DNA of 64,000 nt from Antedon mediterranea (lineage: Eukaryota; Echinodermata; Crinoidea; Comatulida; Antedonidae). Each line of letters starts with the position of its first letter. Position 1 is the stretch's first letter. Position numbers and translations under genes: made by a program. Where the stretch lies: the NCBI RefSeq assembly GCF_964355755.1, contig NC_092675.1, positions 23,786,412 through 23,850,411 of the forward strand, read 5' to 3'. Of this stretch, positions 13,275 through 22,200 are shown piece by piece. The notes below the pieces were generated by a model. That model searched no databases. It was not told the origin of the DNA and saw only the letters and a list, made by a program, of their open reading frames with translations.

Positions 13275-16200
13275 TTACTTTAGTTTGAATGGTGTTGCAT
13301 ACTTCTTTTCTGTTGATCCATTTGGTGAGAAGATGGTCGGTGCGGATTGTTCTACGCTTATTGACGTTTCTTTGGGGTGTTTATTTTGTGGCTCCACGTA
13401 TTCGTAGATTTCTCTAAACCTTTCTGAGTCGGGCAAACGGGCAGGTTTGTTAGATTTACTAACGTTGACCTTTTCTTTATGTATCTTTTGTTTTTTTGTT
13501 TTCTTAGATTGCTTTCTATTTTGTGCCACACAACAACAGCAACAAGCACACAGGACAGCCAGCAAAGCGGCAACACCACACGTTACCATTACAATATAAA
13601 CAAACATATCTTCATTCTTTGCTTCTTTTGTCTTCCCTTCTTCCTCCTCGGCAAAGTTGACTTGTAGTCGACCAATGTTCCCTACAACGTCCGTCGCGAT
13701 TAATTCTACCAACGGGTCACAGCAGCTGCCGTGGTAGATAGCTTTAGCTATAGAACCTGGCACACCTTGGGTAAATTCAGACATTTTAAGACCGATTGCG
13801 TGAGATTCCTTTGAAGTAATGACGTCATAAAGACCCATTCCATTATCGACAACCTCAACAGCAACCGTAAAATTAGCGTCATTACAGCTTCCTTTTAATG
13901 GAAAACACTTTCCAACACGCTCGACAATACTAAAAGATGGTGCAGCTTCATCTAATTCCTAAAAAATATTAAGATTGAGAAACTTTATCAGGACATTTTT
14001 TAGTGAAGATTTTATATCAATTAATTTTTTTTTAATCAAACTGTAGTTGTAGCGTTTTGTTATGACCAATGTTAACGTATTATACTATGATAATAAGACA
14101 ATTATTCTTTTTTAACATTTCATCAGATTTTATTTTTAAACATAATTAATGTTGAGTTAATGAATCACAAGGAGTTCAAACTTAATTAGCATTGAAAATA
14201 ATATATTCAAAGAAAGATGTCAATTAATTCTTCTCTATTTAAATGTATAGGTAAATCCTCTGTGCTTTTTTTGGAATTCTAGATCCGCCCATTGAGAGTA
14301 GAATATAATGAATGAAGTTTTGAAATTGGATGTTACATGACTACCTTGGTTATGACTTATATTACCTTTGGCTGAATGTTGATGGTGAAAACAAAGTAGT
14401 TGTAGTCAGAAGATGCTTTATTTCCTCTGATAACCAACGTCACAGTACTAGAAGTATCGTATGTTGTACCTGTTGGTACATCAAACAGTATTTCTCCTTT
14501 CATCTCTTCATTCTTTCCCAGAACAAACCTGGAAAGAGAGATAATGTAACGAATCTGACAATAGCCAGCTGTTTAGCTGGTTGACACTTTATTTAGAGTT
14601 AATTTTACTTATAATACCTGTTTGGTGTAAGCTGTTTTATAAACCCAGCACTATCGATAGCAGACACAGTGTATTCGGCAGACTCTCCATCATTTACAGC
14701 TTGGAATGGAACACGTTCAGTTGATCCTGGCGACAGCACACGTTGTACATCACCACGGTCGGTTTTTACTGAACACTTTGACGTGCTAATAACTTGACGA
14801 AGTATTCGAGAGAAAACATTTTTTATTACATCCGAACCAATCACTTTTATTTGGAATGGTGACGATGGCAAGATTGTTTTTGTATACAATTTGTTAGATG
14901 CTTCGCTTGTCTGCAGAGGCATTGATTTTATAGTTTCCCCATTTGGTGATAATAATTCAAGTTTATTGGTTGTTCCTACTTTATTTTTATCTCCAATGAC
15001 ATCAATGAGTATGAAGACTTCGACACCTAAAAAATGTAAATGTCATTATTTTATGTAAATGAGTGCAAGCTTCAAGCTTTAAGTTCAAAACAAAATTTAA
15101 AAAAAACACGAATACATAAACATAACAACATATCCTTTTTAGAAACGTTACATTATAAAGCTAATATAGCATAATTATATGAATAAAAAATAATAGTTTC
15201 AAAGCTTGTTTTAACTATCGGAACACCAATAAATACTACAGGGTTGGGTAGGTTTGGCCAGTATGCGTACCTTTTTATGGCCAGCGGGCGTCCCGGATAT
15301 TGCGCAATATGGCCAGCGGGCGTCCAATTATTGCGCAATATTTTTTTAATGGCAGCGTCCGTGCGTGTGAAATACGTACAATGCGACCGGGATGCGTGGA
15401 TAGCTATGTGTGGATAGCTATGGGATAATCGGCCGGCGGAGAGAGTCGGTTTTCATTTTTAAGAGTTTCAATTTTTGGCCTTTATTTTCTGTGTCTGGTT
15501 TAGAATTTGTTTTGTCTCTGTGATGTCCCAGATAGATAGGCTTTAAGAGGCCTCAGTTCAGGCTTGCCCTACTTGCAAATGCTGTATATATAAAATAAAT
15601 GATGTATATAGCGCCCTCTGTCGCATTGTACGTACAGTAGAACCTGTGTTTTACGTACCCTGATTTTACGTTCCCTCGATTTTACGTACGCTAAAAATAA
15701 CCGATGACGTCATCATTTTCTTACATTGAGGGCGCAATTTAACAACAACAAAGCACACAAAGCCACAAGCATGGCTGTGTGAGGAATTCTGCTGTGTGTG
15801 GGACAAGCTACGCACGTGCATTCCCCATAAAGCAGCGACTGTTTTTTTTTTTATAGAAAACAATTATATTTTACACTTTATTTAAACATTGCACAGCCTG
15901 TATATACTGTACTTTTCTAGTTAGGCCTCACATCTTGCTAGGCCTGCTAGCCTGGCCTGAATAGTCTAGGCAAGGCCTAGCTAGTGACCACCTGCGTAAT
16001 GTACAGAAGGCAAACACGGCCAGCTACGATCTCTACGTATTTGGGGTCAATTTAAGGTCAACCTTGATTTTACGAATCCTTTGTTTTACGTACGCCTTTC
16101 GGTCCCGTACCGTACGTAAAATGGAGGTTCTACTGTATTTCACACGCACGGAGCGGAGCTGCCATTGAAAAATTATTGCGCAATAATTGGATGCCCGCTG

Positions 16201-19200
16201 GCGATTTTTTTTTTCGTACATAAATAAACATGAATAATTCATCTATATATAAATTTACGTAAGGGCAAAAATCGGTAAATCGTGCGTTATTTCTAGAATG
16301 TTTACTCGATGGTATATAAAGTTGGTTCGTACTTTCGGTATTGATTTTAACCACCTGATGTAACCCTGTTTACTAATTAAATTGAGTTCGATAATTAGTT
16401 ATTGACGATTAAAACGAATTTAGGTTCAACGATTTGCCCCAAATAGGGTGTTTTTCGATCGTGGTATACACTGTCTAATGGATGTCAATTTGAAAAATAC
16501 CCGTACACAATAATACGAGGACACTTCGCATTTTCCTATCTCCTCCTACGATAATTGTTTTTAATAGCTGAAAACCGGTTGAACAGTTCGAGTACAGCAT
16601 CATAATGTTGAAGACAGGCCGATTTTCTTTAAAAAATACTATTTTGATACATGTAATATACGTTTTTACAAATGTATTGATTTGTGATGAAAATGGAACA
16701 TTCCAAATTATTTGGTTTAACCATAGAGGTATAGATTTAGATTTATGGGCCCCCTTGGAGAATAAACATAAATAGTATTACAATGCTGTACAATACTGTT
16801 AAGGTATTAACCACTTTTGATCGCAATTTGAATCGCAAATTTCTTACTGTGAGTGTTGGTACTGTTAGATATAATATAAACAAATATACAAATAAACTTT
16901 ATTACTGTGAGTGTGGGTAGGCCCTACTGTTAGATTATAAACATATAATATACAAATAAATAAACGTTATTACTGACAGTTGCTTCTCAACGTTTGTATT
17001 AATTAATAATTTAAAAATATATAAACGTCGTAGTGGTGTATCGTTACATGTACTTTACTATTTCAATCGACTATGACAGTGAGAGTTTTAACAAAGTATT
17101 AAATCGTAAATGTTTTACTGTATTTAGTGGTATATTATTTATAGGCCTATAAAACATTAAAAACAATATTTCGTTACTGAGTGGATAAGAATATATTTTA
17201 AAATGTTTCCTCTTTGTACCTATCTTCTTCCCCCATCCCTCAACCCTTAATGTTACATACAAAACACAAATTGGGTTTGTTTAAATGAGTCCAAATAAAA
17301 AAATTGACTCATTTTGTTTCTCTCTCGGAAGTAATTCCCAGGGTGCTAATTTTGGTTGACTACATAAATCATTGTGTATATTTATTCGTTTCTGTAAACG
17401 AACATTTATTATAGTCCTGCAGTACATTTGAAATCTCCATTTTTTTCTCGCTGGAAATACTGTGTATTCGAGAACCATCTGTGGGCACGACCTAGATGGT
17501 ACGCGAGCGAAGCGAGCGTGCCATCTAGTCAGTTAAATTTGTTGTTCCGTGTGCACCCAAGCGTATAGCAACAAGAAGTGATTACACGAACAACTGCGAT
17601 ACGATTCTTTCTACAGTAGGCCTAGGATTCTAGGTCAATTCACGTGATTGCCTTCGCGCACTATTCTTCACACAAAATGTGTCGAGTCGAGGCTAATCGA
17701 CAGCTAGGCAAGACATTAAACTAAGTAGTAATTCATTGGACATAGCCCAAAGAAAGCTTAGACCCACAAGAATAAAGAATGTGTATAATTTGTGTACTGT
17801 ATTTTTTTAATTCTGCTATTTTATTATCAAACAATATGCATGAACTCAAAGGAACTTTAAAAATGCGCGTATATGAACACATGAGATGGGAAGATTAGAC
17901 CCACGAGAATAAAAAATTTATTTTTGTGTAATGTTTAATGTTTAATTTTGCTGACTTATTACTCGGATTGTGTCATACCTAACACACACACGTCACACAC
18001 ACACACACCGTACCCACACAGCTACTACTAGAATAGACATGGGTTTAGAGACTAATAATTAGGCCTATAGTATTTATTAATAGAAACTATAATTTTAACA
18101 CGTAATTCTTTAGTAATAAATTATATTAAAAACACCATAAACAAAGGCTGATTATTTCGACAATCCACACAAAACGCCGCTATTCTTCTATGAAATCGCA
18201 CGCCGCAACAACAGCGGAGATAGGCCTAGAATCGTGGGTGTCACGAAACCTAAGACCACAAAAGCTAAGACCCCCTAAGACCTAAGATCACGAAAGCTAA
18301 GACCCAAGACCTAAGATTACAATATTTATCTTTCGCACCTGCCTTGTATTTTAACTCCCAACATTTATTCTGAATACCACACCTTAGAATTGGCACTTTC
18401 ATGAAAAAGAATCACATAAAAAGTAATAAATACATTTTTAAATTGATGATTTTACAGACGTTTTTCTCGCACACAAAATGACTAGCCTACAGTACAGTAG
18501 GCCTACCCCATGTTCAATTTTTTTGTTTCTATGGAACGTCAAAAGAGCAAAAATTATATAGAGGGCTGAAAACTCTGTGGAGTCCATCTACAGTGCGGAT
18601 GGAACAATGTAAAATTAAAATTGTAATGATAATAGTATAATCAACATGCAATACGAGGAAATAAATACTGGCAAATAAATTTTAATTAAAAAATCATGAT
18701 AAGTTTTTTTGTTTCGTTTTCTTTCTGTTTTTATACTTGTACTATTATTGTTGCTCTTTTGGCGCAGAAACAAAAACATTGAGCATGGGTAGCTCGAGGA
18801 GTTACATTACAGTATACAAAGAAACACATCTGTAAAATCATAAATTTAAAGGATTTATTTATTTGTTATTATGTGTTTCTCCTTCTGAAAGTACTTATAA
18901 GTCCTAATTTTAAAGTGTGGTGTTCAGGATAAAGTTAGTCAACAAATTTGGAGTCAAAATACAAGAAAGGCAGGTGCGTAAGAAAAACATCCTGTATAAA
19001 TATATACAAACAAACACCCCGTCAAGTTTGTTTGTTGTAAACGGGCGAAAATAATGTGAGTTTATCTATGTTTTGCGGTGGTATTAAATTATATTTATGG
19101 TAATAAATGAAACCTACTGTGTTTAAAATTATGTATGGATAAACAAGTATTGTTTTTAAGCTGTAGTATATCTTAGAATTTGTAATCTTAGGTCTTGGGT

Positions 19201-22200
19201 CTTAGCTTTTGTGATCTTAGGTCTTAGGGGGTCTTAGCTTTCGTGGTCTTAGGTTTTGTGAAACCCCTAGAATCGTACCGCACTTGTGTAATCACTTCTT
19301 GTTGCTATACGCTTGGGTGCACACGGAACAAGAAAATTTAACTGATGAATTATTCATGTTTATTTTGTGACGTTTCATGAGGGGGTCCCCAACTTATGTA
19401 CGAAAAAAAAAATCGCCGCCCGCTGGCCATATTGCGCAATATCCGGGACGCCCGCTGGCCATAAAAAGGTACGCATACTGGCCAAACCTACCCAACCCGT
19501 ATCAGTAAATACATTAATCAATTTTACAATTTCTATTGTTGTTCCATGAAAATAAAAGAGAATGGCTTACAAACATTATTATTAAATGTGTTTAAAAACT
19601 AGAACTATTTCGATCGATCATGAAACCAAGGTCTACGGTACAGTATGTGTGTTTTAATGATCATTTAGGCCTACCTTGTGGCGGTTTTCCAACAAGTCGT
19701 TCTACTCCAGGATGAACACCGCCATGTTCCACACCAAACGAAGGTACAAGATCTACAGAACCTTTTCCCGTTACATATACTGAGTACGTGAGGATAGAGC
19801 GTATACGCACTCGCCATTTTCCTGCCTCGGGATTTGCTATTTTAATAATGCGAATGTCTGTAAGTTGTAATACAGCTTCAAATATGTTACCAGTCGATTT
19901 CACGAGTTTCCCTGCAAATATAAGGTATCAACATCGTATCATCGTAGAATATAAATTATATACCTAAATAATAAATAGTATTGTACAACTTTCCAAAAAA
20001 TTAGTAATAATATTAGTACAGCAGATACAATTAATTGTTAATGTCATTTTGTCAAGTTCATTTTATAAATTTTGTCCGGCATAAAAACAATTTAATTCTC
20101 AAAGTCTGTGTGTATATATCATCATCCTGTGTAACCTGCGAAATATTGTTCATTTTCTTGACATTGCGCCTTAAGAAATATAATAATATAAATAAAACAG
20201 AATCAACGTACTTACCAGAAGGATTGAAAATCTTAACGTTGATAACTGTTCCTTTCACATTGATTTCAATTTCTTTAATCGTTGAATCTATATTGACATA
20301 ATGACTTCGACCATCTAATGGGTTCGTCACACCTTGTTGACTTGCATACATTAACGTTATCTAAATAACATATAAATATACGTGTGAATGAATATTGTAC
20401 ACTAAGTATGCAAACACATAGTAAGTTGTCCTCAAAATGGCACCTGAGTTCAATCTCTTCCACATCACCACCGAGATGAAGTTTGCGATGTGTAACAATC
20501 AATAGCCTACACGTGGGACTATTTAATAATGAAAACTTAAATTTTATATTAGCATCACTTTTTAAGTGTTGCAAGTGAAAATAATATAAATCTAGAAAGA
20601 GTTTGACTTGGTGGATAATAGGATTTGTTACCTCTGGTTGACCTGAATCAATATTTAGCATCGAGGTTGCAGCCTTAATTTCCTTTTTCGATAATGTAGT
20701 AACTTCACCGCCTGTTGAGAGAGCTACATCAACATACGAGCTATCAATTGTTATTGCAGCACGTGGGCGGCGTCCTACATCACGTTGTCCGCGAGTACTA
20801 CACGAACCAGATAACATATACTTAATCTGTAAAAACAATATTATGTAAATATTTAAATTAATGATGAAATGTGGTTAATAATAGTGTGATGGCGGCGAGA
20901 ACTCAACTGTTTGAATACCAAACATGACGAAGTAACAACAGGGTCAACGAACATTTAGACAATGCATACATGGAAAACCGGACATTCCGTTAATTACTTC
21001 GGTCACTCAATACGTAAAATAAGAATATCAATACCAGCTTTGTAATGCTGTTCTATTGGCCTTTTGGCTTTCACCACATTACAAACACGTTTTTTCACCC
21101 GATAAATAAAGATGCGAAAACGAAAAACAACCTACAGTATTCTCCCACAGTTATCACACCTTTTTAAAATATGACCTTTTAGGTTTTCAGACATTGTACT
21201 GTCGTAGAAAGGTATTAAACGTTTGTTAACCAACCTTAATAGTCTTGTACTTTGCTAAGGCAATAACTGATTCTTTCAAGTGGGCGTCCTTAGATGAAAC
21301 ATCTGTGAACACGAAACATGTCGAATAGGAGTCTGTGTTCTCTACAGCTAGACGTAAAGCATGGAATGAATTCTCTGGACACTCGATTCCATCTGTGATG
21401 TTGATAGATGATAGTTGTGAAAGGAATTCATCAGGTTTTTTGGTAACAAACGCAGGACCATAATCTAAACGAAAAAACAATTGTCATGTATACTGATTTG
21501 TGGAGAACACTCACAATTAATTTTGAAGAAAAAATTAGACTAAGCAGTTAAGTTCAGCTTTTTATGATTTGTATGTTCACATCATAGGTGTGAACTTTGT
21601 TTCTAAAATTTAATTATTATACAAAATAATGTTTATAGGTGCAATGGGGAAAATAATTTAATGAGGTGAAGCCGAGTGAAAAGAAATACTTTTAACTTTC
21701 ACTGAATGAAATTATTTGCCCGATAATTACTTTTAATGAGAGGCTAGGCCAAGACATAAATCATTCGGGAAGGCAATCCAATTGGTAGAACATCACTAAA
21801 GGTTGATTTTTTTCGAACGCGCAGTTAACAGTGCTCCGATTCCTCACTGGGTAACAGAGTAAGAGTATTCACTCTGATGTCAGAGTTCACTAAACTCAGT
21901 TTATTAAACTCAATGTGACCCACAATCGTCCAATCAAATGACAATTTTCTGTTATTTAAATCGTAATTGTTATTTTAGCTTACCTAGATCACTAAAGGTT
22001 ACAAGTACAAATTGTGACGGTTCGTTGATACTTCCATTCATTCGCTTAATGATTTGTCTTGTTCTATTTTGAACAGCTTCAATATCATTTCTCATGCTAC
22101 TGGTTCTGTCAATTACCATACACATTGTTCCACCTATATGTAACCCGAGATACTTTACAAATTCTCTGTGTCCAACAACTTTTCGAATGTCTTTCAGGAT

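Follow-up and report, generated by a model that had tools for sequence, protein, structure and literature searches.

We have analyzed a window of 64,000 nucleotides of the Antedon mediterranea genome (C6:23786412-23850411; genome of 354 Mb in 18 contigs) and found at positions 15236-19503 a nest of five DNA transposons on three levels: a foldback element (F), a pogo-like MITE (P) and a MITE with Mutator-like features (C) within F, and a Helitron-like element (H) and an element with 10-bp target duplications (D) within C. That they were inserted one into another, F being followed by P and C in its right arm and these by H and D in C, is the reading to which we give a probability of about 0.95. 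The five elements carry different insertion signatures: an 8-bp target duplication for F, TA for P, 9 bp in a GC-rich target for C, a position between A and T with no duplication for H, and 10 bp for D. The initial annotation had counted four layers; C (16201-19416) and D (18236-19266) were overlooked there.

Organization of the nest

The features of the nest and its surroundings are as follows (positions in the window).

15228..15235, left target-site duplication of F, AATAAATA, 7/8 identical to 19504-19511
15236..19503, + strand, F, foldback MITE-like element with ends CTACAGGGTTGGG...CCCAACCCGTATC
15236..15387, + strand, left arm of F (F positions 1-152), intact; the right arm, with P and C taken out, is complementary to it at 95% over 151 bp
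15620..15634, + strand, right arm of F, innermost piece, as far as P, with the left TA of P as its last two bases
15635..16135, + strand, P, pogo-like MITE with inverted ends CAGTAGAACC...GGTTCTACTG; TA at 15633-15634 and 16136-16137
16138..16200, + strand, right arm of F, middle piece; the left target duplication of C makes up its last 9 bases (16192-16200)
16201..19416, + strand, C, MITE with Mutator-like features, ends GCGATTTTTTTTTTCGTACATAA and long inverted repeats; its length is 888 bp when H and D are removed
16242..17528, + strand, H, Helitron-like, 5'-TC...CTAG-3', between A (16241) and T (17529), with a 3'-end hairpin
18236..19266, + strand, D, inverted ends GGGTGTCACGAAACCTAAGACC (right end degenerate), 10-bp duplication CTAGAATCGT at 18226-18235 and 19267-19276
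19417..19503, + strand, right arm of F, outer piece; the right target duplication of C makes up its first 9 bases (19417-19425)
19504..19511, right target-site duplication of F, AGTAAATA, paired with 15228-15235 with one mismatch
14401-15060, 19640-19960 and 20400-21800, minus strand, exon-like stretches flanking the nest, with matches to VWA7, hemicentin and von Willebrand A domains

The Pfam matches of the flanking stretches were to Ig_VWA7 (E 2.1e-6), GBD_Hemicentin (3.4e-6) and VWA_4 (2.2e-20). Since exon-like stretches with VWA7/hemicentin-like domains lie on both sides, the nest is taken to be intronic in an animal gene of the minus strand, and it is probably located in an intron of a VWA7/hemicentin-like gene.

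Boundaries and uninterrupted copies of F

The 82 identical terminal bases that had been described for the two arms were confirmed at 15241-15322 and, inverted, at 19417-19498. The flanks of the fetched copies place the start of F five bases outside these ends, at CTACA on one side and GATAC (read inward) on the other, and these asymmetric motifs lie outside the 151-bp arm. The 8-bp target duplication is perfect in 16 of the 19 other listed loci, at the same distance from the ends; the remaining three are L013, L016 and L017, the last two with an altered end. At about 776-800 of L013 the end of C abuts the last bases of F and the 8-bp duplication is absent, so that C seems to have entered the very end of that F copy.

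Copies of F elsewhere in the genome are mostly about 510-645 bp long, with a few longer ones (L003, L004, L006), and the F of the window measures 540 bp without P and C, with 151-bp arms at 95% identity. The genome search for uninterrupted foldback copies with the 82-base ends, which the initial annotation had suggested, did find them: in 22 of the 30 loci fetched, a single match to the joined F extends from F position 306 or lower to 535 or higher, spanning the insertion points of P and C at 399 and 462. These 22 are not all independent, as the pairs L007/L009 and L016/L017 have shared flanks. In both pairs F copies at different places have matching flanks, and they are carried by larger duplications or are assembly duplicates. 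Looser empty-site counts (27 and 29 of 30 for F, 11/11 for C) were left unused, since either palindrome arm can satisfy them.

F resembles Tm1, a Mutator/Foldback family of root-knot nematodes (PMC3169594), in its long inverted repeats of foldback type, which bear short and asymmetric motifs at their ends, in its MITE-like copies and in the elements nested in some copies. Tm1 differs from F in its target duplications of 8-10 bp, mostly 9, in the tandem repeats of its arms and in having one member that codes for transposase (PMC3169594), whereas the duplications of F are of 8 bp (16/19 other loci, in a comparison made over 8 bases) and a partial look at four loci revealed no coding copy. We assign F to no family. 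In the four loci (L003, L042, L045, L046) F matches lie thousands of bases apart; their six-frame translations were read for stretches of at least 70 amino acids, and the three stretches compared with Pfam (one in L003, two in L042) gave no match at E 0.1.

P and C, the elements nested in F

Pogo and Tigger-type MITEs have CAGT...ACTG inverted ends and TA duplications. We take the ends of P as the mark of this group, the name pogo-like being based on the ends and TA; 4/4 P copies examined (window, L038-L040) have TA flanks and CAGT...ACTG inverted ends. Copies of P are up to 99% identical. The pogo-like MITE of the initial annotation was real, its limits are 15635-16135, and it sits in the right arm of F.

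A 32-base motif of the end of C has 674 exact occurrences in the genome and its reversed control none. In the window C is bounded by a 9-bp duplication, TGCCCGCTG / CGCCCGCTG, identical at 8 of 9 bases. Among the nine C copies with both ends in view the 9-bp duplication is perfect in five (L004, L022, L023, L024, L034), reaches 7 or 8 of 9 in three (L020, L033 and the window) and is absent in L021. Among 38 more C ends, all drawn from 100% matches, the flanks show a CCNGG core of the target: C stands at -7 in 84% and at -6 in 100%, and G at -4 in 97% and at -3 in 87%. The target in the window, TGCCCGCTG, differs from this core at one base. With H and D removed, C finds a one-piece match of about 98% in L022, L023 and L024. 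Pieces of 600 bp or more cross the H site in 10 of 11 C loci and, likewise, the D site in 10 of 11. The two loci that do not fit are L025, in which the left end aligns too short, and L021, where a separate D with a different duplication lies 12 bases away from the D site of the window. Near 16222 the left inverted repeat of the window's C is 28 bases shorter than its right one and than those of other C copies. In L033 (1151-1161) two C ends stand back to back with 9 bases between them.

The long inverted repeats and 9-bp duplications of C are those of Mutator-like (MULE) MITEs, the 9-bp duplication being given for MULE elements in PMC3169594. C departs from them in its clear CCNGG-centred target, and the likeness is one of inverted repeats and duplications.

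H and D, the elements nested in C

The Helitron-like insertion of 1,287 bp had been placed correctly to the base in the initial annotation, between A and T. The 5'-TC and CTAG-3' termini and the insertion between A and T without duplication recur in 4/4 H copies (window, L035, L036, L037). H has a stable 3' hairpin (17492-17528), the palindrome of which extends into the terminal CTAG. The Helitron Helraiser (PMC4778049) likewise has 5'-TC, CTAG-3' and insertion between A and T; its 3'-end palindrome stops 11 nt before the end, whereas that of H runs into CTAG.

An uninterrupted inverted copy of the H insertion site does exist nearby and can serve as the empty-site control that had been proposed, yet it belongs to the right inverted repeat of C and not to an arm of F. 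H is an insertion into C, which lies in F, and not directly into the foldback.

The 10-bp duplication of D is perfect in the window, and 10-bp duplications with GGGTGTCACG ends were present in all eight D copies that could be viewed at both ends (window, L021, L027-L032). A literature search on IS4EU, made in view of the 10-bp duplication, found nothing, and D is given no superfamily name. The best scored relatives of D are about 93% identical, those of C 98-99%; as D is younger than C yet has relatives of only about 93%, a diverged source of D is needed. D is found in C at other places as well (L021, 1630-2726; L033, about 912; L092 5384 to L052 947), these loci having been partly picked for holding D and C, so that they give no rate.

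Repeated insertion of C into F

C lies inside F at five places: the window, L004, L006, L051 and the adjoining stretches L092/L052. L004 has an intact C in F, and L006 retains only 97 bp of C. In L051 C abuts one end of F and has other sequence on its far side, and in L092/L052 a C that holds a D is flanked by 63 bases of one F end and by 86 bases of the other end. In all five places the junction on the terminus side is at the same 9-mer of the inner arm of F, CGCCCGCTG, and the same C end faces the F terminus; the second junction in L092 is at a different 9-mer. A pattern search for the left junction gave 30 matches, two of them with 0-1 mismatch (L004 and the window). The right-junction pattern matched at seven sites, exactly in the window, L004, L006 and L051 and with two mismatches in L052; the other two matches, with three mismatches each, had no C end. 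For the outer copy of the 9-mer in F the junction pattern had four matches with two mismatches each, located in F copies L050, L017 and L016 and, the fourth, in L008, and none of them reads as a C end.

The arm, the F subfamily and the C clade all mark the insertions of C in the window and in L004 as independent events. The independence of L051 and L052, placed by weakly supported forks of the C tree, is not well supported, nor is that of the C of L006 from L004. C occupies this imperfect 9-mer in one or the other arm of F, and the C copies involved belong to different lineages. CCNGG occurs three times in the 540 bp of F vs 67 times in the 59,732 bp of the rest of the window; the denser CCNGG may partly explain the recurrence of C in F. 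A foldback hairpin or a GC island may offer a safe haven to another MITE, and it is conceivable, although we would not count on it, that the arms of F are a preferred landing site for C.

Order of events and alternative explanations

In the order favoured here F was inserted first; P and C, in either order, then entered the right arm of F, and H and D, likewise in either order, entered C. Each element of the nest was probably moved by enzymes from elsewhere. The claim of the initial annotation that the Helitron and pogo are younger than the foldback agrees with this order, unlike its number and order of layers and its placing of the Helitron directly in the foldback. The terminal branch of the window's F (0.028) is longer than that of its C (0.0011), which fits F as the older layer, although divergence between subfamilies also enters the F branch, which therefore gives no clean age. 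Several observations count against the layering: one mismatch each in the duplications of F and C; relatives of D at only about 93% though D is younger than C; a C layer that is not unique to the window locus (intact in L004, damaged in L006, L051 and L052); and eight of the 30 loci (L011, L019, L042, L046-L049, L051) in which no single piece covers both F sites.

The initial annotation had read the same bases differently, with the left arm of the foldback broken by a small inverted-repeat element (15323-16200, holding pogo) and by the Helitron, and with the right arm undisturbed. An inverted repeat of 62 bp and 84% identity (15306-15367 / 16147-16208) does resemble the ends of a small separate element, but it is formed by F's own arms, as the 22 one-piece matches obtained once P and C are removed indicate; the "small inverted-repeat element" is accordingly the interior of F with the continuation of its right arm and P. 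Many matches of 15333-15631 also fall within loci found by the 82-base end, F copies without P and C have arms that run on unbroken, and C and D can each be delimited separately, with copies and duplications of their own. The arm that is broken, by P and C, is the right one, the left one (15236-15387) being intact, and the earlier description has hardly any chance of being correct. It had named as decisive the presence of all inserted blocks at the same places in other copies: no fetched copy has all of them, in agreement with the layering of P, C, H and D, but the 15323-16200 block is common to other F copies and is no layer. The recurrence of C raises another possibility, namely that F and C are one composite moving as a unit, the C layer of the window having been inherited with F. 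L004 and L006 speak for it, being F copies elsewhere with their own perfect 8-bp duplications and with C at the same 9-bp sequence in the same orientation to the terminus. In both, however, C occupies the arm opposite to that of the window; the window's F groups with L008 and L016, which are F copies without C, and not with L004 (100/100); and the window's C groups with L022-L026, the flanks of which are not F (support 100/98), being 99.2% identical to L022 and L026 vs 96.4% to the C of L004. With the arm, the F subfamily and the C tree all speaking against it, the mobile composite is very improbable.

The identical outer ends of F had been attributed to gene conversion between the arms or to very recent movement. 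The arms of the window's F do show 0/82 differences, and at 146-767 of L001 there is an F copy with its interior inverted relative to the asymmetric end bases, which suggests exchange between the arms at least once and that arms recombine at times. Identical ends are nevertheless common in the family: in a genome search with the 82-base end, 16 of the 40 matches scored (out of 69 candidates) were 100% identical, two of them being the window's own ends, so that outside the window the count is 14/38, and many of the matches pair into elements of mostly about 510-645 bp. When arms were compared, 12 of 34 outside the window were equal to its 82 bases (14 of 36 with the window's two). Five loci with unexpected end bases or a single end (L016, L017, L041, L042, L048) were dropped from this comparison, both L007 and L009 were kept despite their identical flanks, and its length was set at 82 bases because 87 bases reach into C in some copies. 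The 18 F copies with both ends had a mean of 1.61 arm-to-arm mismatches per 82 within a copy, against 1.66 for opposite arms of different copies, a within-copy mean as low being reached in 51% of 20,000 permutations; the same (ctaca) arm of different copies differed at a mean of only 0.86 positions per 82, below the within-copy value. The arms of one copy are thus no more alike than those of different copies, and gene conversion is unneeded. In 12 copies of the main F subfamily, variation amounts to 1.1 and 1.8% in the outer arms and to 2.2% in the interior, which argues for ends conserved in the source copies. The near-identical outer ends are accordingly a family trait of F: they look freshly identical since the outermost 82 bases differ little from copy to copy; conversion or very recent movement is unlikely as the cause. 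The visible identity stops at 82 bases because it is exactly there that C begins and interrupts the arm.

Significance of the nest

The nested transposons are all ordinary, as are nests like this one, and most likely the nest has no function. It yields limits exact to the base, target duplications and empty-site controls for five of the genome's transposon families, and it exposes two traps in the reading of such structures: when an arm of a foldback is interrupted, the inverted repeat of the nested element can be mistaken for the other arm of the foldback, and the inner arms of the foldback itself can be mistaken for a separate small element. With its layering corrected, the nest makes a clean teaching case.
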